Source of the DNA: Roseburia sp.
Lineage (GTDB): Bacteria; Bacillota; Clostridia; Lachnospirales; Lachnospiraceae
DNA length: 64,000 nucleotides
Assembly (NCBI GenBank): GCA_017937095.1
Contig: JAGBEG010000002.1
Coordinates: forward strand, 1 to 64,000
Direction of reading: 5' to 3'
This document shows positions 38,907 through 56,989 of this stretch, piece after piece (the first letter of the stretch is position 1; each line of letters opens with the position of its first letter). The notes below the pieces were generated by a model that did no database searches, had not been told where the DNA came from, and saw only the letters and a program-made list of their open reading frames with translations. Made by a program: the position numbers and the translations under genes.

Positions 38907-39371
38907 TTAGAACAAGTCAACTTTGCCTGCAGTCTTCTGATTGATTACATAATATGCAGCGTAATCTTCCGGCTTCAGATAAATCTGAAGAGACTTAATA
39001 GAAGATACTCTGTGTCCTGCTGCAACGAACTGCTCCTTCGCTCTCTCAATTGCAGTCTCTACCAGCGCGCTGTTGCCCTGATACTCAACATATACTTCCG
39101 GCTTTAACTCTTCCTTCGCAGCCTTCTTCGCCGTCTTGGTTCTCGGCTTTCTCGTCTTTTTCTCTTTTACAACTTCCTCTGCCTTCTGGGCAACCTTTTC
39201 CTCTACTGCCTTTGCCGCTGTCTTCGTCTCCTCGACCTTTGCCGCAACCTTCGTCTCTGCTGCCTTTGCCGCTGCCTTGGTCTCTTCAACCTTTGCTGCT
39301 GCCTTTGTCTCTACAGCCTTTGCCGCTGCCTTCGTCTCGTCAATCTTCGCTGTCGTCTTTTTTTCCATCAT
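38907..39371 (-). CDS. Ala/Lys/Glu-rich protein with conserved C-terminal domain (DUF6465-like)
   Basis: 154-residue cytosolic protein of unknown role. Residues about 5-70 are five imperfect repeats of the pattern VETKAAAKVEETKAAAK, strongly charged and helical, like a coiled coil or a late-embryogenesis/histone-H1-type tail. A very basic stretch follows (KEKKTRKPRTKTAKKAAKEE). The C-terminal 65 residues (VYVEYQGNSALVETAIERAK to the end) form a compact domain common in Lachnospiraceae. The basic middle suggests binding to nucleic acid or an acidic surface (inference). ATG 39371 has GGAG 7 nt upstream. It lies 26 nt after the HPr-like gene, in the same operon. Confidence 0.8.
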   Translation of the reverse strand: MMEKKTTAKIDETKAAAKAVETKAAAKVEETKAAAKAAETKVAAKVEETKTAAKAVEEKVAQKAEEVVKEKKTRKPRTKTAKKAAKEELKPEVYVEYQGNSALVETAIERAKEQFVAAGHRVSSIKSLQIYLKPEDYAAYYVINQKTAGKVDLF

Positions 39372-39397
39372 GAGTCTTCTCCTCCTCAATAAAAAAA

Positions 39398-39652
39398 CTA
39401 CTCACACACTAAGAACTTCTCCATTGCTACTAATGCTTCCTTTTCGTCGCTTCCTTCAGCAACGATGTTCACTGTCATCCCTTTGGATGGGTTGAATGCC
39501 ATGATTCCCATAATGCTCTTCGCATTGATTCTGCGGTTATTGCTCTCTAATGTAATCTCGCTGTCAAATCTGCAAGCAACCTGAACCAATTCTGCGACCG
39601 GATTATTATGTTCCTCTGAGACATTTGATACAACTACCTCTTTTCTGCTCAT
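39398..39652 (-). CDS. HPr-like phosphocarrier protein
   Basis: 84-residue HPr/PtsH-family protein. His15 (phosphorylated by PTS enzyme I in true HPr) is present in VSEEHNNPVAELVQVA. The regulatory Ser46 is present in RINAKSIMGIMAF, so phosphorylation by HPr kinase is possible. However Arg17 of the active-site motif HARPA is replaced by Asn (HNNPV), and the sequence is divergent around the catalytic centre. It may therefore be a regulatory paralogue rather than the main sugar phosphocarrier. ATG 39652 follows GGAGG by 3 nt; the longer frame lacks a start signal. It has its own promoter (39718..39690). Confidence 0.88.
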   Translation of the reverse strand: MSRKEVVVSNVSEEHNNPVAELVQVACRFDSEITLESNNRRINAKSIMGIMAFNPSKGMTVNIVAEGSDEKEALVAMEKFLVCE

Positions 39653-39689
39653 AATCCTCCACTTCCTCTTTTCAAGTACTACTCCTTGA

Positions 39690-39718
39690 AATATAACCCA
39701 TCTGCCGGGAATTTGCAA
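39690..39718 (-). promoter_or_regulatory. promoter of the HPr-like operon
   Basis: TTGCAA (39718..39713), 17-bp spacer, TATATT (39695..39690). Confidence 0.65.
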
Positions 39719-39786
39719 TACACCAGCTTCAAAACTGTTAAAATTCCATGAATAATTCGTTACTTCGTTCACTTTTTTATGCATTT

Positions 39787-42318
39787 TCATTTACTGATAT
39801 AGGTAAAAAATACATTTCCTGCGTTTGCGAACATGTCGCCGGCATCCGACAAATTCCGACGGTAAGTGCTCTGAATCATCGGATCATAGATGACAACGCT
39901 GCTGCTGTCATACCCGACAACGAGTACCGCCTGATCGCTTTCCGTCATCGCAAACACCGGGCTGCCGCAGCTCACATAGTAAAGAATCTCATCCACACTG
40001 CAGCCTGTGAGGTCAAGCACCTGCGCATCCTTCATCGTATTGTTCAGGATGCTCTTGGGCGTCTCTCCGCCCTCAATCAGAGCGCTCACGCTGATGTTGA
40101 TTCCCTCTATCTCAAGCATGGCGTTAATACACTGCGCGATGCTTCCCGCTCCCGCATCCTCCGCGCCTACCACAATTTCGGAAGGTGCAGGCTGCGTCGC
40201 GTTTCTCGAGCGCTTCCAGACATATTCAAGATTATCACCAATCACAACGCCCATATTCTCATTTGCCGCAATGACCGCTTCCGTGACATTATCCGTTGCC
40301 AGCACGACGTCGCCCTTCACGTAAACATAATAATGCCTTGTAGAACTCTCATCCTTTAATACGACGGTTCTCTCTTCCTCCAGAATCGTCTCCTTCGGCG
40401 TCAGAAGCCTCGGCGTCTTTTCGCTTGCCGTGCCCGCCAATGTAAGCTGGACCTGCGTCTCCTTTTCCTCGCTCACGCTGGTAGCAATCGTAACGAGTCT
40501 GCCTGTATCGCCCTCCCGGTTCATAATCATATCCTCGTCCGCAGACACATAGGCAGTGCCATTGTACTGAATACGTCTCAGATGCATTGTGTAATCGTCA
40601 ATGTCCACGCCCGCAACATAATAGCCGCTCTTCTCGTATGTCTTAAGCTCTTTAAGTTCCTCCGAGGAGACGTCCAGAATCTTAATCTGGTACATCGGAA
40701 ACGTCACATTTCCTGCCGCATCCTCGAAAATATCCGCTTCCTTTGCAATGCCGTACACAAAGTCTTCTCCCATAAAGCCAAGCGGCTTTAATGCCTCTCC
40801 TGCGGCTCCCTTAATCTCCACGCTCTTCTGGCTCGACAGATTCATGACATGAATCGTATCGCTTCCTCTCGCAGAATCTGCCGTATCGATCCACGCAATA
40901 TAGCGGTCAGACCCGGATACTGCAAATGCCTCGTCCGCCAGCCCCTTGACCAGTTCTCTTGTTTTCAGCGTATTCAGATCAATGCCGTATATGGTTCCGT
41001 CCACCATCAGGAATAATTCGCCGCCCTCATTTACATACATGAGCTGTCCAAGCTCCGATTTCATGATCTCATACGACTTATCGGACGGAATGAACACAAA
41101 TTCCTCATTCGTATTCGACAGACTGTCATAGTGATAGACCGCAATACCGACCTCTCCCTCATGAATCCCCCGGTTCATATAACCGTAGACGATATAATCC
41201 ACGCTGCCCGCCTCATCAATCCCGACGATCTTGATCTCATGCTCACCGTAATTCTCGCGGCTGTCGATACCCTCATACCCACGGAAACCAAATACCTTTG
41301 CAAGGGTGTTCTCCACGGTGTTATAGCACCAGAGTTCTCCCTCCTGCACAAACGCAATGCTGCTTGCCGCCTCATTCGTCTTGTACTCCACCTCACCGGA
41401 ACGGATTCCGAGCTGGATGTACTGCTCATAGACGCTGTCATTCTCTCCGCGGAAAATCTGGTTCATCGTGCGCTCAAAATTGAGCAGGTAAACACGGCTC
41501 GCAGTGTAGCGCACGCGGTAATATTCTTCCACGTTATAATATTCAATCTGACCGCTCTCGCCCACGCTCGACACAACATATTGAAGCACGATCACGTTAT
41601 AAGTGCTCGTGATCTCCTTGATGGAAGGAATCGGAGCCGTCAGTTCCTCTCCCTTGAAGTTCGCCCATCCGACCTGTTTTAAAGAAGAATTTAAAGAAAC
41701 AAAGTGCAGCGTTGAATTATCTCCCGTCGTCTTCTCCATATAGGTCGCAAGCGATCCCGTCGTCTCGTCATTAAAGGTCTTATCGTGAAAGTCCAGCGCA
41801 AAATCCACGCATTCGCTCACATAACAGTCCTTCGGCTGCATGATCCTCGTATAATAGTAAATCGGCTTGTCCCCGCTCTCAAGCCGGATGATGAGCAGAT
41901 ACTCTTCGCCCGTCTCCAGCAGGTTCTGAATCTGCAGTTCCGCCGTAATCTTTCCATGCTTCTCCTCATACGAGCTGACGTCCGCATTCGCAATCAGGCG
42001 CTCTGCATCCAGGCTCCGGATCTCATAGGAAATCGTGTCCACCGCCGTCTGATAGGTCTGTATGGCAATCGGAAGCTTCCAGTCCTCCCCGATCGGTGTG
42101 ATCGTATCCCTCATATACGCCGCATTCATCTCCGTCGCATATCCATGCAGTTCATTCAGTTCCCTGCCGTCCTGATACAGCGAAATAACCGGGAGCGTCG
42201 CCTCCTCCATCTCCGTCGTAAGATCCTCGTTGGTGTGATTCGTCAGCTTTCCGAACACAAGCACTGCAATGATAAATATGATTAACAGAACGGCTGCTTT
42301 TATGGTTCCTTTTTGCAC
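39787..42318 (-). CDS. large membrane-anchored protein with C-terminal C39-peptidase-like fold
   Basis: 843 residues of unknown function. A single membrane segment at 7-23 (AAVLLIIFIIAVLVFGKL) anchors it, with the rest outside. Residues about 60-300 are beta-rich; about 300-600 look like WD/beta-propeller strands (IAFVQEGELWCYNTVENTLA, RYIAWIDTADSARGSDTIHV). The last 120 residues resemble a papain-like C39 domain (SIAQCINAMLEIEGINISVS, QAVLVVGYDSSSVVIYDPMI). The Cys is present but followed by Ile rather than Gly, and the usual catalytic His before VLVVGYD is Gln, so protease activity is probably lost. The GTG start has GGAGG 7 nt upstream. Promoter and terminator overlap just upstream. Confidence 0.7.
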   Translation of the reverse strand: MQKGTIKAAVLLIIFIIAVLVFGKLTNHTNEDLTTEMEEATLPVISLYQDGRELNELHGYATEMNAAYMRDTITPIGEDWKLPIAIQTYQTAVDTISYEIRSLDAERLIANADVSSYEEKHGKITAELQIQNLLETGEEYLLIIRLESGDKPIYYYTRIMQPKDCYVSECVDFALDFHDKTFNDETTGSLATYMEKTTGDNSTLHFVSLNSSLKQVGWANFKGEELTAPIPSIKEITSTYNVIVLQYVVSSVGESGQIEYYNVEEYYRVRYTASRVYLLNFERTMNQIFRGENDSVYEQYIQLGIRSGEVEYKTNEAASSIAFVQEGELWCYNTVENTLAKVFGFRGYEGIDSRENYGEHEIKIVGIDEAGSVDYIVYGYMNRGIHEGEVGIAVYHYDSLSNTNEEFVFIPSDKSYEIMKSELGQLMYVNEGGELFLMVDGTIYGIDLNTLKTRELVKGLADEAFAVSGSDRYIAWIDTADSARGSDTIHVMNLSSQKSVEIKGAAGEALKPLGFMGEDFVYGIAKEADIFEDAAGNVTFPMYQIKILDVSSEELKELKTYEKSGYYVAGVDIDDYTMHLRRIQYNGTAYVSADEDMIMNREGDTGRLVTIATSVSEEKETQVQLTLAGTASEKTPRLLTPKETILEEERTVVLKDESSTRHYYVYVKGDVVLATDNVTEAVIAANENMGVVIGDNLEYVWKRSRNATQPAPSEIVVGAEDAGAGSIAQCINAMLEIEGINISVSALIEGGETPKSILNNTMKDAQVLDLTGCSVDEILYYVSCGSPVFAMTESDQAVLVVGYDSSSVVIYDPMIQSTYRRNLSDAGDMFANAGNVFFTYISK

Positions 42319-43218: not shown

Positions 43219-45891
43219 TTACTGCCTTGTATAAAAAGCGATTCCTATTGTGCCGATTCCCGCGTTGCAGGAATTGGAAAACGATGCCTTCTGCATAAAT
43301 GCCTTCTTAAACGGCACGCACCGCATGACCTCTTCCCTTATCATTTCCTGCTGCTTTAGCGTACACCCGACATGCGTGATAATAATTACATCCGCATTGA
43401 TCTTTCGCTTGCGGCGCAGATGCCAGCGCAGAAAACGCTTCCATGCCTGCTCCATCCTTCCCATTCTTGTTCCCACGATCACAGCGCGTCCCTGACGCAT
43501 AATAATCACCGGATGAAGGTGAAACAGTTCGCACAGCTTTGCCGTAACGACGTCCGTGCGGCCGTTCTTATAGAGGATTTTTGTGTTCGGTACAAGAAAG
43601 CTGCTTACAATCTGCCCCTTTATCTGCTCGAGGCTTGCGCATATCTCATTAACGCTTCTGCCCTCGCCTGCCAGCTTGGCGGCATAGAGCACAAGCATTC
43701 CCTCTCCGCCGGAAATCAGTCCCGAATCGATTACGTGCACATGATCGAAGCCCTTCGCGGCAGCCACCGCCGTCTGATAGCTTTTCCCGGTATGCGCCGC
43801 CATCGAAATATAGATGACATACTCGGCGTGCGTGAGCATCTCGGCAAAAAAGTCCTCATACTCTTCCACCGAAGCGCCGCATGAATGCGCTTCACTGCTG
43901 TCCTGTGTCAGGTACAGGGAGAGATTATCCGAATCAATCTCCCTTGTATCTGCGAAACGCCCTTCCTTCGTCTCAATATAAAGATACATCAGCCGGATAT
44001 CGTATTTCTCCAGCAGCGCATCCGGCAAATCGCAGATGCAGTCCGAGGCGATATAGATTTTTTTCTTTTTGCTGCTTGCGATCTGTTCGATCTGCCCCTC
44101 TCCCGCCGGCGTCCCCGGCAGTTCCCTGCGATACTCCACAATATCGTCCGGCAGGAAGTTCAAAATTTCCGCCTCAAGTCTCTCCGGCTGTATCGGTTTC
44201 TCCAGATATCCGTCAAAGCCGTATTCCGCACAGAGTCTTCGCGCATCCATCAGGATATTTGCCGTCAGGATAATGATCGCCGATTCACGGCACAAGCCGT
44301 TCTCCTGCCTGCGCACCTCCTGCAGCGTCTCGATTCCGTTCATCTTCGGCATCATGTAATCCATAAGGATTACATGATAATACTTCTGCCTTGTTTTTTC
44401 AAGACATGCTTCTCCTCCGCACGCAATGTCCGTCTGCACATTCGTCTGGGCGAGAAGCCTTTGTACGATCACGGCGTTCATCTCGTTGTCATCGACAATG
44501 AGAATCCGCGCCTCCGGCGCCTCAAAGCTCTGCCTGTAGCTGCTCTCTGCGCCAATATGGCTTCTGCCTGTAAAATCCAGCTTTCCGATCGGTCTCTCAT
44601 CCACAATCCGCTGCTTTAACATGACTGTAAACGTCGAGCCTTTCGTATAGATACTGTCCACTGTAATCTCGCCGCCCATCAGATCAAGAAGCTGCTTTGT
44701 AATGGCAAGTCCCAGCCCGCTTCCCTCCACACGGTTCGTCCGCTTCTTATCCACGCGCCGGAACGCGTCGTAGAGCACATCGAAGTCCTCTTTGCGGATT
44801 CCGATTCCGGTATCTGCCACCGTAATCCTTAAGCATACCTCCCCGTCCTTTATCTCCTCGGCACGGACCGCAAAGGTAACAGAGCCTTCCTCCGTATATT
44901 TCACCGCATTGGTGAGAAGATTTAAGAGAACCTGCTTTATCCGCTTCTCGTCCCCATAAAGAGCAGCAGGAAGCGTCTCGTCGATGTCTACGCGCAGTTC
45001 CAGCTTTTTCTCCCGGATCGTGACCTGAATCATATCGATCAGTTCCTTAAGCAGCCCGGCGGTTTCATACGTCTCCGGCACAATTTCCATGCGCTTGATT
45101 TCCATACGGGAGAGATCTAAGATATCGTTGACCAGATTTAAAAGCATCCGGCTTGCGACCTGGATATTTCCGGCATATTCCTGTATTTCCTCTGCGCTGC
45201 CCCCGCGCAGGATCATTTCATTTAAGCCGATGATCGTATTGATCGGCGTGCGGATCTCATGGCTCATATTCGCAAAAAATTCATTCTTGGAATTGCTGAT
45301 TTTCTCAAGTTCCTCCTTCTGCTGTAACGTGACATTCCGCTCGATCTCATATATCTTCATCTGGAATTTAAGGATGCTTCCAACCGCAATTCCAACCACC
45401 GTTACCGCGAAAAAGGAATCTATGAATACCGCCATTCTCGACCGCATCGGGACAATCCACTCCGGATGAAGATAGCCCGCTACATAAGTTCCAACGTCCA
45501 CCGCCGCGGTCAGAATGAAAAATACAGCGAGACGTTTTCCCGAGAACATCATAAATATATAAAACAGGCCCAGCACGAACCAGATCGTCGCACCGCCCTC
45601 AACTCCGCCGCTTAAGAAAAACATACACGGAAACAGGCCCATAATGACAAGTCCCATCAGCACAGCAGCGATATCCACCTTATGGTACTTAAAAGTCGCA
45701 AAAAATGCGGCTCCCATCACCACAAGCAGTAAGAACAACGGTGCAAAAATAATGTCGATGTCCATCACAAGAATACACTCTATGATTCCCGCAATCGACA
45801 TACTTCCGCCAAGAAGAATGATAATACGGAACGTTCGCTCTTTTTGCTCCAGTTCTCTTCCAAGCACCTTGTCGCCAAGCTTTCTTAACAT
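43219..45891 (-). CDS. hybrid sensor histidine kinase-receiver fused to a DegV domain
   Basis: 890 residues in four parts. About five or six membrane segments (20-175) form a MASE-like sensor. A kinase core follows: His211 in NEFFANMSHEIRTPINTI, N box VLLNLLTNAVKYT, G boxes VADTGIGI and GSGLGLAI. A receiver (about 462-585) has Asp511 (VILMDYMMPKMNGI) and EKPI. From about 612 to the end is a complete DegV/EDD domain: YIASDCICDLP, AEYVIYISMAAHTGKSYQTA, VHVIDSGLISGGEGML, ILYKNGRTDVV, IITHVGCT and NAGIGTIGIAF. DegV (FakB-like) proteins bind a fatty acid; the His before GPG in that family is Asn here. ATG 45891 overlaps the previous stop by 7 nt. Confidence 0.9.
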   Translation of the reverse strand: MLRKLGDKVLGRELEQKERTFRIIILLGGSMSIAGIIECILVMDIDIIFAPLFLLLVVMGAAFFATFKYHKVDIAAVLMGLVIMGLFPCMFFLSGGVEGGATIWFVLGLFYIFMMFSGKRLAVFFILTAAVDVGTYVAGYLHPEWIVPMRSRMAVFIDSFFAVTVVGIAVGSILKFQMKIYEIERNVTLQQKEELEKISNSKNEFFANMSHEIRTPINTIIGLNEMILRGGSAEEIQEYAGNIQVASRMLLNLVNDILDLSRMEIKRMEIVPETYETAGLLKELIDMIQVTIREKKLELRVDIDETLPAALYGDEKRIKQVLLNLLTNAVKYTEEGSVTFAVRAEEIKDGEVCLRITVADTGIGIRKEDFDVLYDAFRRVDKKRTNRVEGSGLGLAITKQLLDLMGGEITVDSIYTKGSTFTVMLKQRIVDERPIGKLDFTGRSHIGAESSYRQSFEAPEARILIVDDNEMNAVIVQRLLAQTNVQTDIACGGEACLEKTRQKYYHVILMDYMMPKMNGIETLQEVRRQENGLCRESAIIILTANILMDARRLCAEYGFDGYLEKPIQPERLEAEILNFLPDDIVEYRRELPGTPAGEGQIEQIASSKKKKIYIASDCICDLPDALLEKYDIRLMYLYIETKEGRFADTREIDSDNLSLYLTQDSSEAHSCGASVEEYEDFFAEMLTHAEYVIYISMAAHTGKSYQTAVAAAKGFDHVHVIDSGLISGGEGMLVLYAAKLAGEGRSVNEICASLEQIKGQIVSSFLVPNTKILYKNGRTDVVTAKLCELFHLHPVIIMRQGRAVIVGTRMGRMEQAWKRFLRWHLRRKRKINADVIIITHVGCTLKQQEMIREEVMRCVPFKKAFMQKASFSNSCNAGIGTIGIAFYTRQ

Positions 45892-48800
45892 ATTCCGCCT
45901 TCCCTCCTTCCTGCTTCGATTCGTGCGCACATCTGCTCAAAGGCATCCAACGCAGACATGTAATCCGCCATCCCGATTTTTCTCCGGACAGGCTCAAGCA
46001 GCTTTTTTAAGGGCTTGCCGCAATAGCTGTACCCTTCCAGTTCCTCTACGATTTTAAGCATCGCCTCTGCGTCCAGCCCGAACACCGCTTCCTCTAACGC
46101 CTTTGTAAACGCGTCGCGCTTCGCCTCGTCCAGCTCCCGCAGTTCCGTCGTCTCTTCCGCCTTTTCTTCCCGCCGCGTCTGCGTATTCTCTTCCGATCCC
46201 GTGTCAGCGCCCATGCACCTTCTGATATTTGTAAAAACACGCTCATACGCCTCCGCCAGTTCGGCGTGATGCTCTTTGACATAGGAAATATTTCCGGCTT
46301 TGCCTGCCATCTCCTGCTCCTTTGCAAGCTCGGAGACCCGGATTGCGCCGATACTGCGCATCGCGCTCTTGATGCCGTGCACCGCGATCACATACTCATC
46401 CCACTGCCCGTTTTGGTACAGTTCCCAAAGCTTCTCCAAATGCTCCGCTCCGCGGGCGCTGTAATTCTCAAGGACCTTCCGGTACCCCTCCTCTCCCCCG
46501 CAGTAGAGCAGACCTGTGTCTCTGTCAATTCCTTCAATCTCCGGAACTGTCTCCTTATTCTCTGTCTCCTCAATCTGTGCAGATGCGCGTTCTTCCCTCG
46601 CTGCGTCCCGATCCCATCCGGGCAGTTCCCCGCCCGTCTTTGTCGCGGCTTCCTTCTCTGACACCGCTTCCTTCTCTGCTGCATCTTTCTGCTCCAACGA
46701 CCGCGGAGACGCTGCATTCTCCGTTTCCCCTTCAATCGGAATCAGCTTCTCCACAGGGAGATTGCGGCGCAGCACACGCTCCAAGACAGATACCTCCACC
46801 GGTTTCTCAAGGAAATCGGCAAACCCATCCTTTAAGAATTTCTCCCTCATTCCCGCAATCGCGTTTGCGGTCAGCACGACTACCGGGACCCTCTGGTAAT
46901 AGTTTCCAACCTTTTCACGGATACGGTGTAATGTCTCGACGCCATCCATCTCCGGCATCATATGATCCATGAACACAAAGTCGTAATCCATCGATTCGAT
47001 TTTCTCAAGGGCTTCTCTGCCGCTTCCAGCTTCCGTGACTTTAATCTGGTACTTCTCTAACAGGGCGGTTATGACCCTGATATTCATCTCATTGTCGTCC
47101 ACAACCAGCACATGCGCCGTCGGTGCAACAAAGCCGCGGTTGTGCTCTATATAGCGCGCGCACTGCCCGTCCATTTCCCCGTTAAGCACGGACACGATCG
47201 GCAGGATATAAAACGGCTTGAACACAAGGCTGATTCTCTGATTCGTCACACGCCGTTCTCCGCGCGGCTCCACGATGCAGATAATCCGAACCTCCTTTGA
47301 CAGTTCATCAAAGTACGCCCTGTCTTCCCTGTATTCCACATCGCTGATAAAAATATGCGTGAAATGCTCCCGTTGTTCCCTGCGCTTTAGTTCTGCAAGA
47401 TTACGGCAGATCCTGCACCTTACCTTAAGCTGTTCCACCATATGCGCAACATTCTGCGTATACTCGTCTCTGGTCGCATTCATCTTGAACTGCTCCATAT
47501 TGACGTACACCGCAATATTATACTTCTCACGCTCTGCAATATCCGTAATCGGCTGCTCATTCCATATCTTCTGCGGAATGACGATCCTGACTTCCGTCCC
47601 CTTTTCATACCGGCTCTTTACCGTGATGATGCCGCCCATCTTACGGACGAGCGCCTGTGAGATTGCGAGTCCGATACCGATACCTCCCTCGGAACGGTTT
47701 CTTCTGGTATCTACCTGCGCGAAGCTCGTAAAAAGCTTCTCCAGGCTCTCCTCTCTCATTCCGATTCCGGTGTCCTTCACCGTAATGCACAGGTTCATCC
47801 CATAGGCTTCCCGGCGCCCTGTGACCTTTATGCTCACATATCCCTCATTTGTGAACTTGATCGCATTCTCCACGATATTTAAGATCACCCGGCGTATCTT
47901 CTTCTCATCGCCATAAAGCCCGCACGGTATTCCCGCGTCGCAGTCCACGATCAGTTCAAGCTGCTTGTCCCCTTTCTTTGCCACAGCCATCTGAATGATA
48001 TCATTCATCATAGAGGTAACATGATATGCCTCCTCCTCCAGTTCGACCGTTCCCGCCTGCAGCTCCGAAAAGTCCAGAATATCGCTGACCATCGACATAA
48101 GATTGCGTCCGGCATACTGAATACACCGGACCTGCTGCCTGATCTTCTGCGGATCATTCTCCCCGAGCACGACCTCGCTCATTCCGCAGATCGTATTGAT
48201 CGGCGTGCGGATTTCATGACTGACGTTCGCTAAGAAATCATCCTTACTGCGTTCCGCCTGCTGCAGTGCGGCAATGCTCTCGTCGGCGCGCGCATCGTTT
48301 ATATTCCTGTGCTTGACCCATAAGTACACAACGAACTGTTCCAGAAAAATATTCGCTATCAGCAGGATGATACGTAAATTCTCTGCAAGCGACGAAAACT
48401 GTATCGTCTTTAGAATGACCCCATGATAAAAGAGCAGGACCGCCGTCGCCACCGCGATAATGCCAATCAGATCGCAAATCCCAAAGAAGCCGGCAATGAC
48501 GGCAAAGGACGCCATAATCGCAAGCGTCTGGAATATATCTTCCATATACGCTCCGAAAAGCATGAGCATGACCCCCATCATAACTGTGATGAGGAATGCG
48601 CGCGACCGGTAATCGCGCCAGTGCCCGATGTACAAGATCCATCCTGTCACCGCGTTGGCAAACAAAAAGAACGATACCCAGTCCGCCCAATCCTGCGCCA
48701 CTGATACCGCAACCATCCCGAATCCATACAAGCTAAAAAGGATCAACACAAACTTTTCTGTTTTCTGCTGCTGCAGCTTATCATAATCGATGTTTTCCAA
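45885..48800 (-). CDS. hybrid sensor histidine kinase with receiver and Hpt domains
   Basis: 971 residues. Four to six membrane segments (about 15-165) with almost no extracellular loops, then a short coil. The kinase has His195 (DDFLANVSHEIRTPINTI), N box VILNIVENAIKFT, and G boxes VKDTGIGM and GGIGIGLAI. A degenerate receiver-like domain (about 425-545) lacks a clear phospho-Asp. A true receiver has Asp612 (FVFMDHMMPEMDGV) and Lys in FLEKPV. An acidic Ala/Glu linker leads to an Hpt domain with His808 (VIAVHGIKSAMRSIG), then another helical module. All steps of a phosphorelay are in one chain. The start is TTG 48800, with GGAGG 7 nt upstream and directly behind a terminator. Confidence 0.92.
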   Translation of the reverse strand: MENIDYDKLQQQKTEKFVLILFSLYGFGMVAVSVAQDWADWVSFFLFANAVTGWILYIGHWRDYRSRAFLITVMMGVMLMLFGAYMEDIFQTLAIMASFAVIAGFFGICDLIGIIAVATAVLLFYHGVILKTIQFSSLAENLRIILLIANIFLEQFVVYLWVKHRNINDARADESIAALQQAERSKDDFLANVSHEIRTPINTICGMSEVVLGENDPQKIRQQVRCIQYAGRNLMSMVSDILDFSELQAGTVELEEEAYHVTSMMNDIIQMAVAKKGDKQLELIVDCDAGIPCGLYGDEKKIRRVILNIVENAIKFTNEGYVSIKVTGRREAYGMNLCITVKDTGIGMREESLEKLFTSFAQVDTRRNRSEGGIGIGLAISQALVRKMGGIITVKSRYEKGTEVRIVIPQKIWNEQPITDIAEREKYNIAVYVNMEQFKMNATRDEYTQNVAHMVEQLKVRCRICRNLAELKRREQREHFTHIFISDVEYREDRAYFDELSKEVRIICIVEPRGERRVTNQRISLVFKPFYILPIVSVLNGEMDGQCARYIEHNRGFVAPTAHVLVVDDNEMNIRVITALLEKYQIKVTEAGSGREALEKIESMDYDFVFMDHMMPEMDGVETLHRIREKVGNYYQRVPVVVLTANAIAGMREKFLKDGFADFLEKPVEVSVLERVLRRNLPVEKLIPIEGETENAASPRSLEQKDAAEKEAVSEKEAATKTGGELPGWDRDAAREERASAQIEETENKETVPEIEGIDRDTGLLYCGGEEGYRKVLENYSARGAEHLEKLWELYQNGQWDEYVIAVHGIKSAMRSIGAIRVSELAKEQEMAGKAGNISYVKEHHAELAEAYERVFTNIRRCMGADTGSEENTQTRREEKAEETTELRELDEAKRDAFTKALEEAVFGLDAEAMLKIVEELEGYSYCGKPLKKLLEPVRRKIGMADYMSALDAFEQMCARIEAGRREGGIC

Positions 48801-48815
48801 TGTAACGCCTCCGTT

Positions 48816-48853
48816 GAAAAAAGCATACCGATGCCTTTGGCACCGGTATGCTT
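48816..48853 (-). terminator. intrinsic terminator between the MCP and hybrid kinase genes
   Basis: Long near-perfect stem (AGCATACCGGTGCC with GGCATCGGTATGCT) followed by TTTTTTC on the minus strand. It ends 3-4 nt before the GGAGG of the hybrid kinase gene, and no promoter fits in between. Confidence 0.9.
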
Positions 48854-48875
48854 CAGACTTTTCATCGGGCAACCC

Positions 48876-50144
48876 CTACTCGCTATAAGTTTCCTCTGTT
48901 CCGTTTCCAAGCTGATAGATTGCAAGCATATCCCGCATCCGGTTCGCCTGATTGGAAAGCTCCACGCTCGCCGCCGCACACTGCTCGCTGGTCGCAGAGT
49001 TCGTCTGTACCACCTGCGCCACCTGCTCTACCGCCTGATCGATCTGTGCAATTGCCGTCGCCTGATAATTGGAGGAATCGGCAATATCACGGATCAGCCC
49101 TTCGCTCTCCTTCACTGCCTCCGTGACAAGCTCAAGCGCTCTCGCCGTATCGTCTGCAATACTGGAACCCGCTTCAACCTTATGTATGGAATCCTCGATC
49201 AGCTCCGCAGTCTCCGACGCCGCCGATGCGCTCTTCGCCGCCAGATTCCGCACTTCTTCCGCTACGACTGCAAATCCCTTTCCGGCTTCTCCTGCCCGCG
49301 CCGCCTCTACTGCCGCGTTTAGAGCAAGGATGTTCGTCTGGAATGCGATATCGTCAATGACCTTTATGATCTTGGAAATATTCTCCGACGCCTGATTGAT
49401 CTGCTCCATTGCCTCCATCATATGATGCATCTGCACATTTCCCTGCTGTACATTCTCAATCGTCTGCTCCGCCAGCTCCGCCGCCTTGATCGCCTCATCT
49501 GCATTCTGTCTTGTCTTTGCCGCAATATCCGCGATGGACGCCGTAATCTCCTCAATGGCGCTCGCCTGCTCTGTCGATCCTTCCGCCAGCGCCTCGCTCG
49601 CGCCCGCTACCTGCGAAGAGCCTAACGATACCTGCTCCGCCGCGTCCCGGATATTTAACATCGCGTGACGGTTCGTCTTTACCAACTGCTTTAAGGAATT
49701 GCCCAAAAGATCTTCGTCTGACTTCGCCGCAACCTCTATCGTCAGATCGCCGCCTGCCACTGTCTCTGCCACATGCGCCTGATAGCGGATATTATCCACG
49801 ACCTTCTGGTATTCCTCAATCATCTCACCAAACTCATCGTTGCTGCACTTTTCAAGTTCCACATCCACCTTGCCCTGAGCGATCTGGCGCGCTGCCTCGG
49901 AAAGCATTTCCGTCGACTTGCGGATCGCCCTTGTCATAGCGATTGAAATATAGCCCATCACGACCAACGCTACAGCAAACAGCACATACGAAAATATCCG
50001 GTAGCTTTTCAGATAATGCTGCGGATCGTCCACCGTGATAATTGTTTTTGCTGTGGAATATCCCAGAAATATCGTCAGGATAACCAGGATATCCACAATG
50101 ATAAACCCAATGATAAGCTTGGTATGCATCTTCATATTTTTCAT
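48876..50144 (-). CDS. methyl-accepting chemotaxis protein with minimal sensor
   Basis: 422-residue chemoreceptor. Two membrane segments (about 9-28 and 50-70) enclose only about 20 extracellular residues, so there is almost no periplasmic ligand domain. A HAMP (about 70-125) leads to a long coiled-coil signalling domain. The hairpin tip, where CheA and CheW bind, reads [20 protein letters not shown] and [20 protein letters not shown]. Candidate methylation Glu/Gln pairs ([20 protein letters not shown]) are present. No CheR-binding pentapeptide is at the C-terminus. The start overlaps the cheW stop by 4 nt. The signal may come through the membrane or from the cytosol. Confidence 0.94.
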
Positions 50145-50647
50145 AGTTCTTCTTCTCCTTCTTCCGGCGCTTCCTGTGCCTGTTCCATCGCAGATAAATC
50201 CTCATCGTTGATCAGTTTATCCGGGTCAAGCAGCAGCTTTACATTATCCCCGACTTTTCCAATCGCATACACATACTGGTTCTGCGAGTTATCCCCGTGC
50301 CCCAGTGTCGGCGACGGCAGAACATTTTCTTCCGGTATCTCCGCCACCTCTGCAATCTTCTCCACAATCAGCCCCACGACCGTGGACTTGACGTTAATGA
50401 CAATGATACAGGTGCGGTCATTGTATTCAAACGGTTCCTGCTTAAAGCGGATTCTTACATCTATGACCGGAATGATTTTTCCGCGCAGATTGATCAGTCC
50501 CTTTATGTAATCCTCGCTTTCCGGGATTGCCGTAATCTCCTGAAACACGATAATCTCATTGACATATTCAATCTTAAGCCCAAAATATTCATTTCCGGAC
50601 TTGAAGGTTACATATTTATCCTTCTGCGTGTCATGTTGTTCACTCAT
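50141..50647 (-). CDS. cheW: chemotaxis coupling protein CheW
   Basis: Links receptors to CheA in signalling arrays. 168 residues, one CheW domain: [70 protein letters not shown]. The C-terminal 20 residues are acidic ([14 protein letters not shown]). ATG 50647 is chosen (AAAGG 5 nt upstream). It lies 27 nt after cheA and overlaps the mcp start, confirming the operon. Confidence 0.95.
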
Positions 50648-50674
50648 ATGTACCTTTCCTTTCTCCAAGAGCAG

Positions 50675-52816
50675 TCATTCTATCATTCCCGCCGCATCCA
50701 GAATCAGCGCAATGCTTCCGTCACCAAGCTGCGTACAGCCTGTAAGTCCTTTTACCTTGCGTATATAGCCCGGAATCGGCTTTACAACGATTTCCTGTTT
50801 TCCGACCAGACGATCCACAAAAATGCAGATGTTCTTCTTCTCCACCTCTGTGATTACCATCATGCCCTCTTCCACATTGGTCTTGTAGCCGTCAAGGTGA
50901 TACCAGTCGCCAAGCCGAAGTACCGGATAGCATTCGCCGCGGATCATGACATGCTCCTTGCCGTTTGGCTCGCGCACCATCATATCTTCGTTCACACTCA
51001 CAAATTCCTTCACAACGCCCGTCTCCATGACAAAGGAGGAATTGCCGACCTCCATCACGACGCCGTCGATAATTGCAAGCGTCAGCGGAATCTTAAGAAG
51101 CATCGTGCTTCCCTCTCCCGGCGTACTCTCTATCTCAAGCGCGCCTCCGATCGACTGAAGGTTCGATACTACAACATCCATACCGACGCCTCTTCCCGAA
51201 TATTCTGTGACCTGTTCGTTCGTGGAGAAACCCGGCAGCGTGATAAACTGATATACCTCCTTATCGGTATACGAGCTTTCCGCTCTGGACGGATCGAGAA
51301 GCCCCTGTTTTCTCGCCTTCGCCATGATCTTGTCGCGCTCCAGTCCTCTGCCGTTATCCGTCACGCCGATCCATACCTTGCCGGATTCGGTCTTTGCGGA
51401 GAGCGTTACCTTGCCCTTTTCCTTCTTGCCTGCCGCCTCACGCTCCTCCTTCGTCTCAACGCCGTGATCGACGGAGTTGCGCACCAGATGCATCAGCGGA
51501 TCGGAAATGTGCTCGATGATATTCTTATCCACCTCGGTCGTCTCTCCGATCATCTCGAACTCAATGTCCTTTCCGAGCTTTCTTGACACATCGAAGACAA
51601 TACGGTTCATCTTCTGGAAGGTGTTGGTCAGCGGTACCATACGCATACTCATGATCACGTTCTGCAGATCGGTGGAAATCTTCGCCATCTGCGCCGCCGC
51701 TTTGTTAAAGTTGTCAAGCTTAAGCCCCGGCACCTTGAGATCCTGATTCTGCAATACCACCGATTCCGAGATAACAAGCTCGCCGATCAGATCCATCAGC
51801 ATATCCATTTTGGACACGTCCACGCTGATGAACGCCGCCTTCTCGGACTTCTTCGGCTTATCCTTTGCGAGCTTTCTGGACTTTCCGGGTTCCTTGGAGG
51901 CGATGACGAAATCACCGGGCGCCATCTCTTTCTTCGGCTCCGCCTTTTCCTGCTGCTTCGCCTTTGCCGTAATCTCCTCCACGCTGGAATCCAGATCGAT
52001 TCTTATCTCAGAACCAATCCCTTCAAAGCCCTGCTGATAGTCCTTCGCACTGCAGGGATAAATCTCCACCTTCTCAAGCTCGTAACCGGTCTGAATCATC
52101 TTCTTTAATTCTGCTTCCGTGCTCTGCGTCTGAAGCAGAATCTTAAAGCCGTTCTCTAAAATTTCCTCGGCGCTGTGCTCGTTGGAAATGATATCCTCCG
52201 GGGAATAGAGAATGTCCTCGGCAATCCCCTTTAACGCGTACACCGTCTTATATGCATGTACATTTGCAAGCTCGATTCCCGGGCTGTAGGTCAGATATAT
52301 TTTATAAAAATGGCTGTCGCTTGTTGCCATGGGGGCAATGTAGAACTGCTTGGGTTCAACGTGCACATTCTTTTTCTCTTCCCCGTCCGCTCCGGCGTCT
52401 CCGTTTTCTTTCTTTATGGTGTTAAGAAACTTATCGATCTTCTCGATGATCTCACTCGAATCGCCGTCCGCCGTCTCGCCGTTCTCAATCTTTTCCATCT
52501 CGCCTGTGATGAAATCCGCCACCTCAAGCACATGCTCTACCAGCTCCAGATGCGGGACATTCTTAGGATGTGACTCTCTCAGATAGAAAAACACATCCTC
52601 GAGCTTATGCGCGGCAGCCGTAATGTCGTCGAACATCATGATTCCGGACGAGCCTTTGATCGTGTGCATTGTACGGAATATCTCATTGATGCTTTCCTCA
52701 TCGAAGCACTCCTCGTCCTTCTGCTCTAAGACGATCTCCTGCAGCCGTTCAAGCAACTGTCCGTTCTCATATAAGTACATGTCAAGCATGCCGTCTGTGT
52801 TGAACTCCTCCGCCAT
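50675..52816 (-). CDS. cheA: chemotaxis histidine kinase CheA
   Basis: 713 residues. P1 (Hpt) about 1-110 with phosphorylated His51 (IFRTMHTIKGSSGIM). A P2-like domain at about 160-270 (FYKIYLTYSPGIELANVHAY). P3 dimerisation begins about 335 (FISVDVSKMDMLMDLIGELV). P4 ATP-binding at about 400-560 with N box DPLMHLVRNSVDHGVE, G1 VTDNGRGL, and G2 GRGVGMDVVVSNL. P5, the CheW-like domain, is at about 570-713. All catalytic motifs are present. Its partners CheW, CheY and CheB are encoded alongside. AGGAGG lies 6 nt before ATG. Confidence 0.97.
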   Translation of the reverse strand: MAEEFNTDGMLDMYLYENGQLLERLQEIVLEQKDEECFDEESINEIFRTMHTIKGSSGIMMFDDITAAAHKLEDVFFYLRESHPKNVPHLELVEHVLEVADFITGEMEKIENGETADGDSSEIIEKIDKFLNTIKKENGDAGADGEEKKNVHVEPKQFYIAPMATSDSHFYKIYLTYSPGIELANVHAYKTVYALKGIAEDILYSPEDIISNEHSAEEILENGFKILLQTQSTEAELKKMIQTGYELEKVEIYPCSAKDYQQGFEGIGSEIRIDLDSSVEEITAKAKQQEKAEPKKEMAPGDFVIASKEPGKSRKLAKDKPKKSEKAAFISVDVSKMDMLMDLIGELVISESVVLQNQDLKVPGLKLDNFNKAAAQMAKISTDLQNVIMSMRMVPLTNTFQKMNRIVFDVSRKLGKDIEFEMIGETTEVDKNIIEHISDPLMHLVRNSVDHGVETKEEREAAGKKEKGKVTLSAKTESGKVWIGVTDNGRGLERDKIMAKARKQGLLDPSRAESSYTDKEVYQFITLPGFSTNEQVTEYSGRGVGMDVVVSNLQSIGGALEIESTPGEGSTMLLKIPLTLAIIDGVVMEVGNSSFVMETGVVKEFVSVNEDMMVREPNGKEHVMIRGECYPVLRLGDWYHLDGYKTNVEEGMMVITEVEKKNICIFVDRLVGKQEIVVKPIPGYIRKVKGLTGCTQLGDGSIALILDAAGMIE

Positions 52817-52830
52817 TTTGCGCCTCCTTC

Positions 52831-53223
52831 CTAAATCAGTCCCAGCTTCTTAAGCGCCTGTTCAAACCGCTCCTGATCGATCGGCTTGCCCGAATAAATG
52901 GTGCATCCCAGTTCAAATGCCATCTTCACATTCTTCTCGTCATTGAGCGCGGTCGTCATAATGACCTTCACCGCCTTATCCTCCGGGATATTCCGCTCTT
53001 TTTCGAGATTGCGGATTCCCACAAGCGCCTGATAACCGTCCATGACCGGCATCATGATATCCAGGCATACCAGATCATAGGGCTGGTCATCCTCAAGCGC
53101 CATCATAAACGCGTCTACAGCCTCCATACCATCTACCGTAACGTCGCATTCCCCATACTTTGACAGGAACGTCGTCATAAACTTGCGCGTCACAAAATCA
53201 TCCTCAGCCAATAAGATTCTCAT
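52831..53223 (-). CDS. cheY: CheY-like single-domain response regulator
   Basis: 130-residue receiver with no output domain. Acidic pair Glu7/Asp8, phospho-acceptor Asp55 (LVCLDIMMPVMDGY), Thr90/Thr91 and Lys113 (SGKPI) are all in place. It resembles the CheY/stress-type receivers found with atypical che operons. It could act on a flagellar switch, but no flagellar gene is near, so it may instead feed another relay. GGAGG lies 7 nt upstream of the ATG. Confidence 0.92.
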   Translation of the reverse strand: MRILLAEDDFVTRKFMTTFLSKYGECDVTVDGMEAVDAFMMALEDDQPYDLVCLDIMMPVMDGYQALVGIRNLEKERNIPEDKAVKVIMTTALNDEKNVKMAFELGCTIYSGKPIDQERFEQALKKLGLI

Positions 53224-53235
53224 ATAAGTTCCTCC

Positions 53236-54264
53236 TTACATTTTGTCCAATAATGCATATGTCCGTCTTGCAATATCGCCGATCTTTTCCTGATATTCGA
53301 CTGCTCCAAGATCGTATGCGACCTTCGGCATCCCATATACAACACAGGTGGATTCGTCCTGCCCGATCGTCCGCGCTCCCCTGTTTCGCATCTCAAGCAG
53401 CCCCTTGGCTCCGTCTCCGCCCATTCCTGTCAGGATAATGCCGATCGCATGTTTCCCAGCCGTCTCCGCCACAGAGTGAAAAAGCATATCCACCGAGGGA
53501 CAGTGTCCGTTCACCTTGGGCGCCTTTTTGAGCACCACCTGATAGGCGCCGTTCACATTTACAAGCTGCATATGCGAATCGCCTGCCGGAGCAATTAACA
53601 CCTGCCCCGGCAGCACCGGATCCCCGGATCTGGCTTCCTTCACCCGGACGCGGCACTCATCGTCGAGCCTCTTTGCATACATTTCCGTAAATCCTGCCGG
53701 CATATGCTGCACAAGCACAGTGCCCGGTATATCTGTTCCAAACTGTTTTAAAATATTCGACGTGGCTTCCGGTCCCCCCGTAGACGCCCCGATCGCAACG
53801 ATAAGATCGTCACTCTTCTTCCCGCTCCGCTCCGCGATCACAGGTCTGACCGCCTTCTTGATCGCGCCGATATGCGCAATCGACGCGACCTTAATCTTGA
53901 TCGGAAGCTCGTTGCGCACGAACGCTTCAAGCTGCGTCCGGTCCGTCACCGTCGGCTTTGCTACAAATTCCACTGCTCCGGCGCCCAGCGCTTCAAACAC
54001 CTTGTCGCTTAACGAGCTGATGACAACGACCGGAAGCGGATACTGCGGCATGAGCTTTTTCAGAAACTCCAGCCCGCTCATCCGCGGGAGCTCAAGGTCC
54101 AGCGTCATCACATCGGGCTTATGCTCGATGATTGCATCCCTTGCCTCGTAGGGGTCGCGCGCCGTCGCCACAACGCAGATCGCAGGATCTTTATTTAAAT
54201 TCTGTACAAGAAGCTCCCGGAATACAAGGGAGTCCTCCACTACCAGCACTTTGATTTGACGCAT
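53236..54264 (-). CDS. cheB: protein-glutamate methylesterase CheB
   Basis: Removes methyl groups from receptor glutamates (and deamidates glutamines) when phosphorylated by CheA. 342 residues: receiver 1-115 with Asp56 (VMTLDLELPRMSGL), linker, and a C-terminal esterase with catalytic Ser161 (IGASTGGPEA), His187 (VQHMPAGFT) and Asp284 (TGMGGDGAKGL). All catalytic residues are intact. Its counterpart CheR is not in the window, which is unusual because the two normally adjoin. The start ATG has GGAAGGA 6 nt upstream. Confidence 0.96.
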   Translation of the reverse strand: MRQIKVLVVEDSLVFRELLVQNLNKDPAICVVATARDPYEARDAIIEHKPDVMTLDLELPRMSGLEFLKKLMPQYPLPVVVISSLSDKVFEALGAGAVEFVAKPTVTDRTQLEAFVRNELPIKIKVASIAHIGAIKKAVRPVIAERSGKKSDDLIVAIGASTGGPEATSNILKQFGTDIPGTVLVQHMPAGFTEMYAKRLDDECRVRVKEARSGDPVLPGQVLIAPAGDSHMQLVNVNGAYQVVLKKAPKVNGHCPSVDMLFHSVAETAGKHAIGIILTGMGGDGAKGLLEMRNRGARTIGQDESTCVVYGMPKVAYDLGAVEYQEKIGDIARRTYALLDKM

Positions 54265-54311: not shown

Positions 54312-55373
54312 CTATTGAAGCTGCTTTGCAATTCTCCGCAGTATTCCGAAAAGCTCAGGATTAAACCTCTTTCCCACATCCTGCTCCATAATATCTAACG
54401 CTTCCTGCCTGCCGCACCCATCATCCTGCGTCAGCGTGCAGTACGTATCAACTACCGCCACGATCTGTGCAGAAAGCGGAATCTCCTCGCCCTTTTTGCC
54501 CTCCGGGTAACCGCTGCCATCCCAGTTCTCATGATGATAATGCGCGATCTCTTCCGCCATCTCGATGAAATCATTAAAGTCCCTTATCTTGCGGATATCA
54601 TGCAGAATCTCCGCCCCAACTGTGGTATGGCTTTCTAAAAGCGTCTGCTCCTCTTTGGACAAATGCTCCTTTCCCGATAATATATCGGTCGGAACCGCTA
54701 CGTTCCCAAGATTACAGAGCGGCGCCATCAGCTCGATCCTGTCAATATAAGAATCTGATATAAGGCTTCCATAAGCTGCGGACAACTGCATTGCCTCCGC
54801 CAGCGTGCGGCAGTTCGCCTTAAGCCTGTCCATATACGCCTCGTCATAGCTTACGCACTCTCTTGCCACCCGAAGCAATGCATAGATGACGTCCTTTTTC
54901 TCCGCCTCCATCTGCTTTAACTGTTCGCCCACCGACGTCTGAAGCTGACGGTTAATCTCCATCATATTCCTCTTCATCTCAGCGAACTTCAGGTGCACGC
55001 CGACACGCGCCTTGACGATCTCCGGGATGAACGGCTTCGTGATATAATCCTCACCGCCCAGATTAAAGCCCTGTACAATATCCGCCGGATTATCGAATGC
55101 GGAGATAAAAACGATGGGAATATCCCTTGTGTCCACATTCTCTTTCATAATCCTGCAGAACTCATAGCCGTCCATCTGCGGCATCGCAACATCCAGAATA
55201 ATGAGCTGCGGACGGCATCTCTCTACCATCTTAAGCGCCTGCACGCCATTTTCCGTGAGAATCGGAAGATATCCCATATCCGAAATAATATCCCGCAGGA
55301 CAAAGCGGTTCTCCTCGACATCATCCACGATCAATATTCCCTGCGATTCTCTTTTCTTATCCTCATGTATCAT
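54312..55373 (-). CDS. receiver fused to a degenerate HD-GYP domain
   Basis: 353 residues. Receiver 1-125 with Asp61 (LIILDVAMPQMDGYEF) and YITKPF. A helical linker follows, then an HD-GYP fold at about 165-345. In active enzymes the first motif is HDIGK; here it is CNLGN (in LMAPLCNLGNVAVPTDIL), so both HD metal ligands and the Lys are lost. Other pieces remain: ESHTTVGAEIL, HYHHENWDGSGYPEG, and VVDTY. The second Asp of the DxxD pair is Cys. Hydrolysis of cyclic di-GMP is therefore unlikely; it may bind it or act as a scaffold (inference). AGGAGG lies 7 nt before ATG. Confidence 0.88.
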   Translation of the reverse strand: MIHEDKKRESQGILIVDDVEENRFVLRDIISDMGYLPILTENGVQALKMVERCRPQLIILDVAMPQMDGYEFCRIMKENVDTRDIPIVFISAFDNPADIVQGFNLGGEDYITKPFIPEIVKARVGVHLKFAEMKRNMMEINRQLQTSVGEQLKQMEAEKKDVIYALLRVARECVSYDEAYMDRLKANCRTLAEAMQLSAAYGSLISDSYIDRIELMAPLCNLGNVAVPTDILSGKEHLSKEEQTLLESHTTVGAEILHDIRKIRDFNDFIEMAEEIAHYHHENWDGSGYPEGKKGEEIPLSAQIVAVVDTYCTLTQDDGCGRQEALDIMEQDVGKRFNPELFGILRRIAKQLQ

Positions 55374-55427: not shown

Positions 55428-56846
55428 TCACAGTAACAACTGCATCTTTTCATGTGCTGCAACCGTTTTCTCGTAATCGCCTTTCTGAACCGCCATCTTA
55501 AGCCGCAGCGCAGCGCTTTTTACCTCGCCCGGAGCATCTTTCGTCAATTGACGAAGCGTCTCCGCAAACATCTCCGCTTTCTCCCAGTTCTCCATCTCCA
55601 CGGAGAGAATCAGCTTCGACATCTTCTTGCGGATCTCCTCGAGATTCTCCTTTTCGCCGTAATTCCAGATATTCTGATTCTCTTCGATATCTGAAAGACT
55701 TCTGACCAACTGCGGCATCTCGTAGGGCGCCGCCTGTTCCCTGTCGCTTAAAAGCTCTTCCCCCGGAACATCCACCCAGATATGGAAGCTGAAAATGCTT
55801 CCTTTTCCCGGCTGGCTCTCCACCCGGATATTTCCGCCCATAAGCTCTACAAGCTGCTTACAGATATTAAGCCCAAGCCCCGTGCCGCCGTACCTTCTGG
55901 AAATCGATGCGTCCACCTGTGAAAAACTCTTAAACAGCTTATCCTGATCCGCCTTGTTGATCCCGATCCCGGTATCGACGACGAGGAAGAACAGCTCCAC
56001 CCGCTCGTTCATCTGCGCCGTCTTTAAGACCTCCAGCGTAACCTTGCCGACGGACGTGAACTTCGAAGCGTTCGACAACAGGTTGTTCAGAATCTGCACG
56101 ATGCGAAGCTCGTCGCCGATAATCTCCTCCGGCACCTCCGGCGAGACCGTGACGAAAAATTCCAGTCCCTTTTCCGTGATCTTGTTGCTGTGATTCGCCT
56201 TCACATAATCAATCATCGACCGTACATTGAACTTGCGCGGCTCCAAAACAAACTTCCCTGCATCCAGCTTGGAGAAGTCCAGAATGTTGTTGATGATTGC
56301 GTGCATGTCATTGCACCCACGTTCCACAAGCCGGAGCAGCTTAAGCTTCTCCTCCGCATCTTCAAGCTCCATCAGCTCTCTGGTATTGCCGAGGATGCCG
56401 TTGACCGGCGTGCGGAGTTCATGCGTGATATTCGCAACAAATTCAGACTTGACCTTAAGGGCGGTGTCCGCGTTCGCCTCCGCCTGCGCGGCGCGCTTTT
56501 CCATAAAATCCTTTTCGGTCGCATCGTATGCCATGCACAGATAATAGCCGGGATGTCCTTCCCATCGAAGCAGCCTGACCTGACTTGCAAAACACGTCCT
56601 GTTCTTGCGGTATGCCGACAAGTCACGGATTGTCATTCCAAACGGATATTCCTTAATAAACTGCGAATCCATGACGCCGAACTCTCCCGGAAATACGTCC
56701 CAGATATAGCAGCCGCACAATTCCTCTCCGTATTCCAGGCGCTGCTTTGCCGTCTGATTGGCAGATGTGATCCTTCCGCCGTCGTCAAACACCAGAATCA
56801 TCTCAAGTGCATATTCCATAGAAAACTGTTCCAGGTCCTCTTTCAT
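55428..56846 (-). CDS. soluble PAS-domain sensor histidine kinase
   Basis: 472 residues with no membrane segment. A PAS-like sensor (about 5-110: MEYALEMILVFDDGGRITSA, YIWDVFPGEFGVMD) precedes a coil. The kinase core has phospho-His142 (KSEFVANITHELRTPVNGIL), N box ILNNLLSNASKFT, and G boxes VVDTGIGI and GGTGLGLNI. The C-terminal 100 residues are helical (MSKLILSVEMENWEKAEMFA) and may be an accessory dimer or Hpt-like bundle without a clear His. First gene of the chemosensory operon. ATG 56846 has GGGAG 8 nt upstream; the longer frame is not supported. It probably phosphorylates the downstream receiver proteins. Confidence 0.92.
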   Translation of the reverse strand: MKEDLEQFSMEYALEMILVFDDGGRITSANQTAKQRLEYGEELCGCYIWDVFPGEFGVMDSQFIKEYPFGMTIRDLSAYRKNRTCFASQVRLLRWEGHPGYYLCMAYDATEKDFMEKRAAQAEANADTALKVKSEFVANITHELRTPVNGILGNTRELMELEDAEEKLKLLRLVERGCNDMHAIINNILDFSKLDAGKFVLEPRKFNVRSMIDYVKANHSNKITEKGLEFFVTVSPEVPEEIIGDELRIVQILNNLLSNASKFTSVGKVTLEVLKTAQMNERVELFFLVVDTGIGINKADQDKLFKSFSQVDASISRRYGGTGLGLNICKQLVELMGGNIRVESQPGKGSIFSFHIWVDVPGEELLSDREQAAPYEMPQLVRSLSDIEENQNIWNYGEKENLEEIRKKMSKLILSVEMENWEKAEMFAETLRQLTKDAPGEVKSAALRLKMAVQKGDYEKTVAAHEKMQLLL

Positions 56847-56989
56847 AGCTACATCTCCCGAACAACGCAAAAAGAAAGCCTCCGGTTCAGAATCAGTTCT
56901 TATCCGATTGCTTTCTCTACATACAATCCTCCTGTCGCTCTCCTCTGGTCCGTCTCTTCCCATAGTCACGCCGCTGATATTATAGTCCT

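Follow-up and report, generated by a model that had tools for sequence, protein, structure and literature searches.

DegV proteins (PF02645), represented here by FakB1 of Staphylococcus aureus, form a well-studied family of lipid carriers. An EDD-fold substrate-binding protein of a kinase has been turned into a regulator before: DhaQ is a co-activator paralogue of the dihydroxyacetone kinase DhaK. Regulators that join a receiver (REC) to an HD-GYP domain (PF13487) are cyclic-di-GMP phosphodiesterases. LadS is reported to be a hybrid kinase that uses the histidine phosphotransfer (Hpt) domain of another kinase, GacS (PMC4866733). We analysed a 64,000-nucleotide stretch of a Roseburia sp. genome (assembly GCA_017937095.1, contig JAGBEG010000002.1, positions 1 to 64,000; hereafter the window), in which one gene joins a hybrid histidine kinase (HK) to a DegV domain.

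The window protein differs from FakB1 in being fused to a hybrid kinase. Moreover, across the clade of fused domains, the residues that serve phosphotransfer with FakA and those that serve docking to the membrane do not occur together, and most members have Asn in place of the carboxylate-network His. DhaQ, unlike the fused protein, has no histidine kinase fusion and is DhaK-like rather than FakB-like. As with LadS and GacS/GacA, an HK-REC protein without its own Hpt lies beside an Hpt-bearing kinase, and the expected path is H1-D1-H2-D2. Unlike LadS and GacS, the two kinases are encoded by adjacent genes here; in some clades the Hpt has shifted from one to the other, and a DegV domain is part of the input kinase. 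A search of open-licence PMC papers found no HK-DegV protein. The fused architecture is real and conserved, and it combines two familiar elements, the phosphorelay of hybrid kinases and the DegV fold, in a join of which we found no account. Our reading, with a probability of roughly 0.55, is that the fused protein serves as input kinase in a phosphorelay of two kinases that occurs mainly in Lachnospiraceae, that its DegV part is a former FakB acting as a ligand-binding regulatory domain, and that the signal is relayed to the regulator of the operon. The features of the gene pair are as follows.

43219..45891, minus strand: fused HK-REC-DegV protein, 890 amino acids, ATG at 45891, stop ending at 43219
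45322..45846, minus strand: membrane region, residues about 16-190 (hydropathy and full-length model)
45100..45291, minus strand: HisKA with His211, residues 201-264 (Pfam, 69.9 bits)
44611..44955, minus strand: HATPase_c, residues 313-427 (Pfam, 95.7 bits)
44164..44505, minus strand: receiver (Response_reg) with Asp511, residues 463-576 (Pfam, 80.9 bits)
44074..44151, minus strand: linker, residues 581-606 (full-length model; predicted local distance difference test score below 50 at residues 591-607)
43228..44061, minus strand: DegV (FakB-like) domain, residues 611-888 (Pfam and NCBIfam)
43264..43266, minus strand: Asn876, the site matching His270 of FakB1 (alignment to FakB1)
45885..48872, minus strand: partner hybrid kinase HK-REC-Hpt, 995 amino acids from the first TTG (Pfam HisKA, HATPase_c, Response_reg, Hpt)

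An earlier note on this DNA, made from the sequence alone, had placed a kinase core, a receiver and a complete DegV domain in one frame, leaving the strand (minus) unstated. The Pfam search agreed, with HisKA, HATPase_c, Response_reg and DegV following in this order, all well above their cut-offs, and the five DegV landmark strings, His211 and Asp511 named in the note were all found in the 890-residue translation. The DegV domain scored 133.6 bits with PF02645 (cut-off 27) and 145.5 bits with NCBIfam TIGR00762 (cut-off 99.7), which disposes of the possibility, raised in the same note, that a profile search would find no DegV. The protein has the marks of a hybrid kinase, namely the HisKA His, the N and G boxes of HATPase_c, and the receiver Asp and Lys; His211, Asp511 and Lys565 were each invariant in 44 of 44 aligned rows. 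An alternative GTG start at 45930 would give a version of 903 amino acids. The membrane region consists of five predicted helices and then one long helix reaching into the kinase, and it matched no Pfam family at E 0.01. In one sequence pair the ratio of nonsynonymous to synonymous change (dN/dS) was 0.17 for DegV and 0.15 for the kinase; the DegV part is under selection against change. Of the seven DegV matches in the genome, the fused gene is the sole long frame (905 amino acids), the other six measuring 284-363.

The earlier note had also allowed that a sequencing error might have joined two genes. Such an artefact, or a chance resemblance, can be regarded as already refuted. Among the best 80 of 220 loci from a DNA scan, 75 had an uninterrupted fused frame with 551-656 residues ahead of DegV (in one of them, L138, the contig ends within DegV). 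The exceptions were three loci cut by the contig start (L113, L116, L119), one frameshifted (L148) and one interrupted (L169). In addition, the fused DegV domains formed one clade with SH-aLRT support of 99-100 in trees covering 50 of 132 fused domains. The point in favour of an artefact is L074 (the same gene as L148), which has a frameshift at a poly-A run in the same REC/DegV joint (L074:10440-10560), indicating that the joint can be misread. We considered L074/L148 as a naturally split gene and rejected it as evidence, because the HK-REC and DegV frames part at the poly-A run, as a frameshift would have it. Downstream in L074 (12257-12622), a 121-residue frame resembles the fused protein and is perhaps the remnant of a second copy.

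Neighbourhoods were scored in 129 distinct loci (138 loci less nine duplicates), 121 of them with the partner in view. In 121 of 129, the gene immediately upstream of the fused gene, in the same orientation, encoded a kinase of HK-REC-Hpt type; in the other eight, the contig or fetched stretch began with the fused gene or shortly before it. The two genes overlapped or lay at most 30 bases apart in 107 of 118 measured pairs, the first ATG, GTG or TTG being taken as the start. In the window, the stop of the partner overlaps the start of the fused gene, and the true start of the partner is uncertain. Identity between the two window kinases is 41% over the kinase part and 35% over the receiver. 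The partner-type rows (n = 117) had the kinase His in 117, the receiver Asp in 116, and the Hpt His in 105 of the 108 having that column. In the window partner, the Hpt His is His832, counted from the first TTG.

Counting adjacent co-oriented genes as the operon and excluding the Hpt of CheA itself, a relay Hpt was present in 120 of 121 operons. It was on the partner alone in 109, at the C-terminus of the DegV protein in nine, and in a separate downstream gene in two. None was seen in L093, and none of the 121 operons carried it on both partner and DegV protein. In the group of nine, the partner measures 676-695 amino acids and has no Hpt. Pfam placed the Hpt behind DegV in L083, L075 and L088, found none in the partner of L083, and recovered the separate Hpt gene in L072. 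The nine DegV-Hpt loci formed one clade in a tree built from the kinase part, which called for at least three Hpt changes. One relay Hpt per operon, moving between proteins, suggests that both kinases share one phosphorelay. The evidence is good, though not numerous, and this would be the best reading of the sequences.

The DegV/FakB fold of the fused domain is wholly kept, with high confidence. We compared residues (FakB1 numbering) between 132 fused domains, a table that takes in truncated and frameshifted loci, and a biased control set of 35 stand-alone proteins made up of six from the genome of the window and the 29 best-scoring DegV matches of 60 genomes. Were DegV instead an output module, serving as a fatty-acid carrier that receiver phosphorylation switches in its loading or in its presentation to FakA, several features would fit: its place behind the receiver, where outputs usually stand, its complete FakB fold, the genome's single FakA-type Dak2 protein, and the Arg that the window domain retains at the Arg173 place. 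However, Arg173 and Arg205 occur together in 0 of 132 fused domains, compared with 34 of 35 stand-alone proteins. Arg is retained at the Arg173 place in 36 of 132 fused domains (35 of 35 controls) and at the Arg205 place, which is Met in the window, in two of 132 (34 of 35). Position 180, Lys in the window, carries Lys or Arg in 78 of the 132 fused domains and is hydrophobic in 34 of 35 controls, and the window protein thus lacks the docking and exchange combination of FakB, Arg205 with a hydrophobic residue at 180. The matching mutants of S. aureus FakB1 are reported to be impaired: R173A shows no activity in the kinase assay, and R205A, R205E and W180E are defective in binding to membranes but can still use fatty acid held by bovine serum albumin. 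FakA could be served instead by the six stand-alone DegV proteins of the genome, of which five read as having both arginines and the His. The nearest stand-alone relatives, a sister group of seven that are the best-scoring stand-alone loci of a DegV profile search and no census, retain the FakB working residues in seven of seven. By these residue patterns, a working lipid carrier is unlikely, and a carrier acting as phosphorylation-switched output is highly improbable. The earlier note had proposed either lipid-dependent signalling or a phosphorylation-controlled lipid carrier; the sensing half is plausible, and the carrier half is unlikely in view of the lost Fak residues. The likeliest role of the fused DegV is that of a non-catalytic regulatory, probably ligand-sensing domain.

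The His270 of FakB1 aligns with Asn876, as the earlier note had read it, and this place is Asn in 117 of 132 fused domains; the nearby Ser870 is fixed in 129 of 132. The carboxylate network of FakB1 is altered in the window at Thr62 (Ser), Ser95 (Gly), Ser171 (Asn) and His270 (Asn). Ser171 is no mark of the DegV family, since its place is Gly in 34 of 35 controls. A DegV domain that has become a structural or protein-binding module without ligand, for instance a dock for the Hpt or receiver of the partner or a dimer brace, would account for the loss of ligand and Fak residues, for the Hpt standing behind DegV in the same protein in 10 loci, and for the hydrophobic residues conserved specifically in fused domains, which include Phe646, Phe681, Phe715 and Phe861. 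We consider it unlikely, though worth keeping in view: the fold is wholly kept, and Asn at the His270 place and Ser870 are both fixed, as would be expected of a site that was changed rather than abandoned. Sensing of a non-lipid small molecule, in the manner of other EDD-fold members (DhaK, DhaQ), seems improbable to us. A bulky residue at position 121 (Ile, Leu or Val in 129 of 132 fused domains) was considered as a fusion-specific block of the tunnel and rejected, because the sister stand-alone group has Leu there in seven of seven and FakB1 A121I is reported to be still active.

What stands in front of the kinase pair bears on the output. The commonest arrangement, in 42 of 121 loci, was a receiver protein bearing HDxGK directly before the pair, like the REC-HD-GYP regulators; the REC-HD proteins examined matched Response_reg and HD_5 in Pfam, with GYP present. 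The window copy and its close relatives, in contrast, are without the HD motif. The remaining loci had a methyl-accepting chemotaxis protein (MCP; 25), a solo receiver (14), a degenerate REC-HD protein (12), another receiver-like protein (10), another gene or none recognised (11) or a contig edge (7). In L081 (3462-5888) and L090 (2906-5281), a REC-GGDEF-REC-HD protein lies ahead of the kinase pair, with cyclic-di-GMP making and breaking domains in one chain.

In the mechanism that we propose, the former FakB, now non-catalytic, would bind a ligand from the cytoplasm, for which an acyl or similar hydrophobic acid is the likeliest candidate. Ligand on DegV would shift the attached kinase between kinase and phosphatase activity. 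A second ligand may be sensed by the membrane region. The phosphoryl group would pass from His211 (H1) to Asp511 (D1), then to the Hpt of the partner and on to the response regulator of the operon; in one clade, Asp511 would hand it to the Hpt that follows DegV in the same protein. For the 42 loci above, whose regulator keeps its HD motif, cyclic-di-GMP breakdown is the likely output. The window operon combines a regulator that has lost this motif with a CheB-CheY-CheA-CheW-MCP block, so that its output would influence an accessory chemosensory array. The full chain, in which a pseudo-FakB reads the cytoplasmic acyl-acid pool and feeds, via a borrowed Hpt, into a cyclic-di-GMP or chemosensory output, is a tentative proposal. 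As a guess, the ligand is perhaps a short-chain acid such as butyrate in these gut anaerobes.

Several points weigh against this phosphorelay reading. Most of the carboxylate network is altered in the window, which speaks against an ordinary fatty acid as ligand. Phosphotransfer from the fused receiver to the Hpt and ligand binding by DegV are both predicted steps. The full-length model has a predicted template modelling score of 0.50 and does not define the domain packing, with DegV behind the receiver on a low-confidence linker. The Hpt shifts rest on about three events, and L088, one of the nine DegV-Hpt loci, has a further Hpt-bearing kinase near the pair. The regulator varies more than the kinase pair does: in front of the partner, 25 loci have an MCP, 11 another gene or none recognised, and seven a contig edge. 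Finally, the loci (58 from genome samples and 80 scanned contigs) are not independent, as they include 10 duplicates and many related metagenome-assembled genomes (MAGs).

Upstream of the pair, the window carries a chemosensory block.

48876..50144, minus strand: MCP (Pfam MCPsignal, weak HAMP; two membrane segments by hydropathy)
50141..50668, minus strand: CheW (Pfam)
50675..52816, minus strand: CheA with Hpt, P2, dimerisation, HATPase and CheW domains (Pfam)
52831..53223, minus strand: CheY-like single receiver (Pfam)
53236..54264, minus strand: CheB (Pfam)
54312..55373, minus strand: REC-HD response regulator (Pfam HD_5, 95.2 bits, and Response_reg)
55428..56969, minus strand: PAS-histidine kinase at the head of the block (Pfam; similar genes in L052, L117, L122 and L124)

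CheA, CheW, MCP, CheB and CheY thus occur together, as in a Che system; CheR was absent among the genes scanned, and no search for it was made elsewhere. An MCP before the pair is the end of a chemotaxis block, and CheA or CheB was seen in 24 loci. The CheA of the window is one of two H-kinase_dim matches in the genome. Because a second CheA lies elsewhere in the genome, together with seven flagellin-domain matches, we read the block as an accessory chemosensory set. Pfam found no ligand-binding domain in the window MCP, and an MCP of this kind would fit an array fed by neighbouring kinases, which is a guess. In the REC-HD protein, LCNLGN replaces HDxGK and GYP is kept, so that the motif of an HD-GYP phosphodiesterase is incomplete; the REC-HD proteins of L104, L108, L117 and L052 have lost the HD motif likewise. 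The window protein is likely a non-catalytic HD-GYP.

The distribution of the fused protein was determined with the full protein as query. A match running from kinase/receiver to DegV was found in at least 47 of 299 genomes of the family of the window, a figure that takes in the genome of the window itself, a single gene with a frameshift and two fragments at contig edges, with three candidates scored per genome. This family is taken to be Lachnospiraceae on the strength of contigs in common (L039 and L106, for example) and of the titles of the scanned loci. At E 1e-135, a class sample of 391 genomes gave matches outside the family only in three genomes of one genus (g354, in another Clostridia family, f45), and a phylum sample of 398 genomes gave none outside the family. 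The three loci from that genus (L097, L098, L099) nest within the fused clade of the family and are candidates for horizontal transfer. When the phylum sample was searched with a DegV profile, the long frames among the matches listed were that of the window, those of two genomes of the same family and one 580-residue frame from another family of the class (G332, contig 44, 64828-65652). The titles of the 80 scanned loci were mostly Lachnospiraceae or its genera; the few labelled Bacillus, Alistipes or Gastranaerophilales may be mislabelled MAGs. The closest among these best 80 of 220 loci was a MAG labelled Roseburia hominis, with 77% identity in DegV. Two loci, L142 and L175, carry strain titles (D16-51 and 1xD42-87) and seem to come from isolates. 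A plasmid search matched 13 records, every one below 60% identity.

To our knowledge, sensory ligands are known for few kinases of gut Lachnospiraceae. The fused protein offers a signalling kinase with a domain of a well-studied lipid-carrier family, a likely relay partner and a measurable output (cyclic-di-GMP, motility), and, with an Hpt domain that changes places from one partner kinase to the other, the operons amount to a natural experiment. Since the architecture is widespread in the family, an answer would apply to many species. The relatives, which share the kinase and its neighbouring partner, suggest that a lipid carrier was put to new use as a switch within a signalling relay of bacteria. 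If the pseudo-FakB is indeed a sensor, it would represent an input domain of a new class and give signalling in Lachnospiraceae a new connection to lipid or acid metabolism.

DegV also occurs in larger proteins with enzyme partners. L219 (617-2398) encodes a 594-residue Dak2-FakA_M-DegV protein, with FakA- and FakB-type domains in one chain, and L220 (660-2327) a 556-residue fusion of a HAD hydrolase and DegV (both by Pfam). Pfam found no signalling domains in either. Downstream of the fused gene, the window encodes a DUF6465 protein (38907-39389) whose N-terminus is repetitive and rich in Lys, Ala and Glu, and an HPr-like protein (PTS-HPr; 39398-39790) with a longer N-terminus. An 843-residue protein adjoining the HPr-like gene has a weak match, below the cut-off, to C39 peptidases. 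The downstream block around the HPr-like gene is also kept in L100 and L101.
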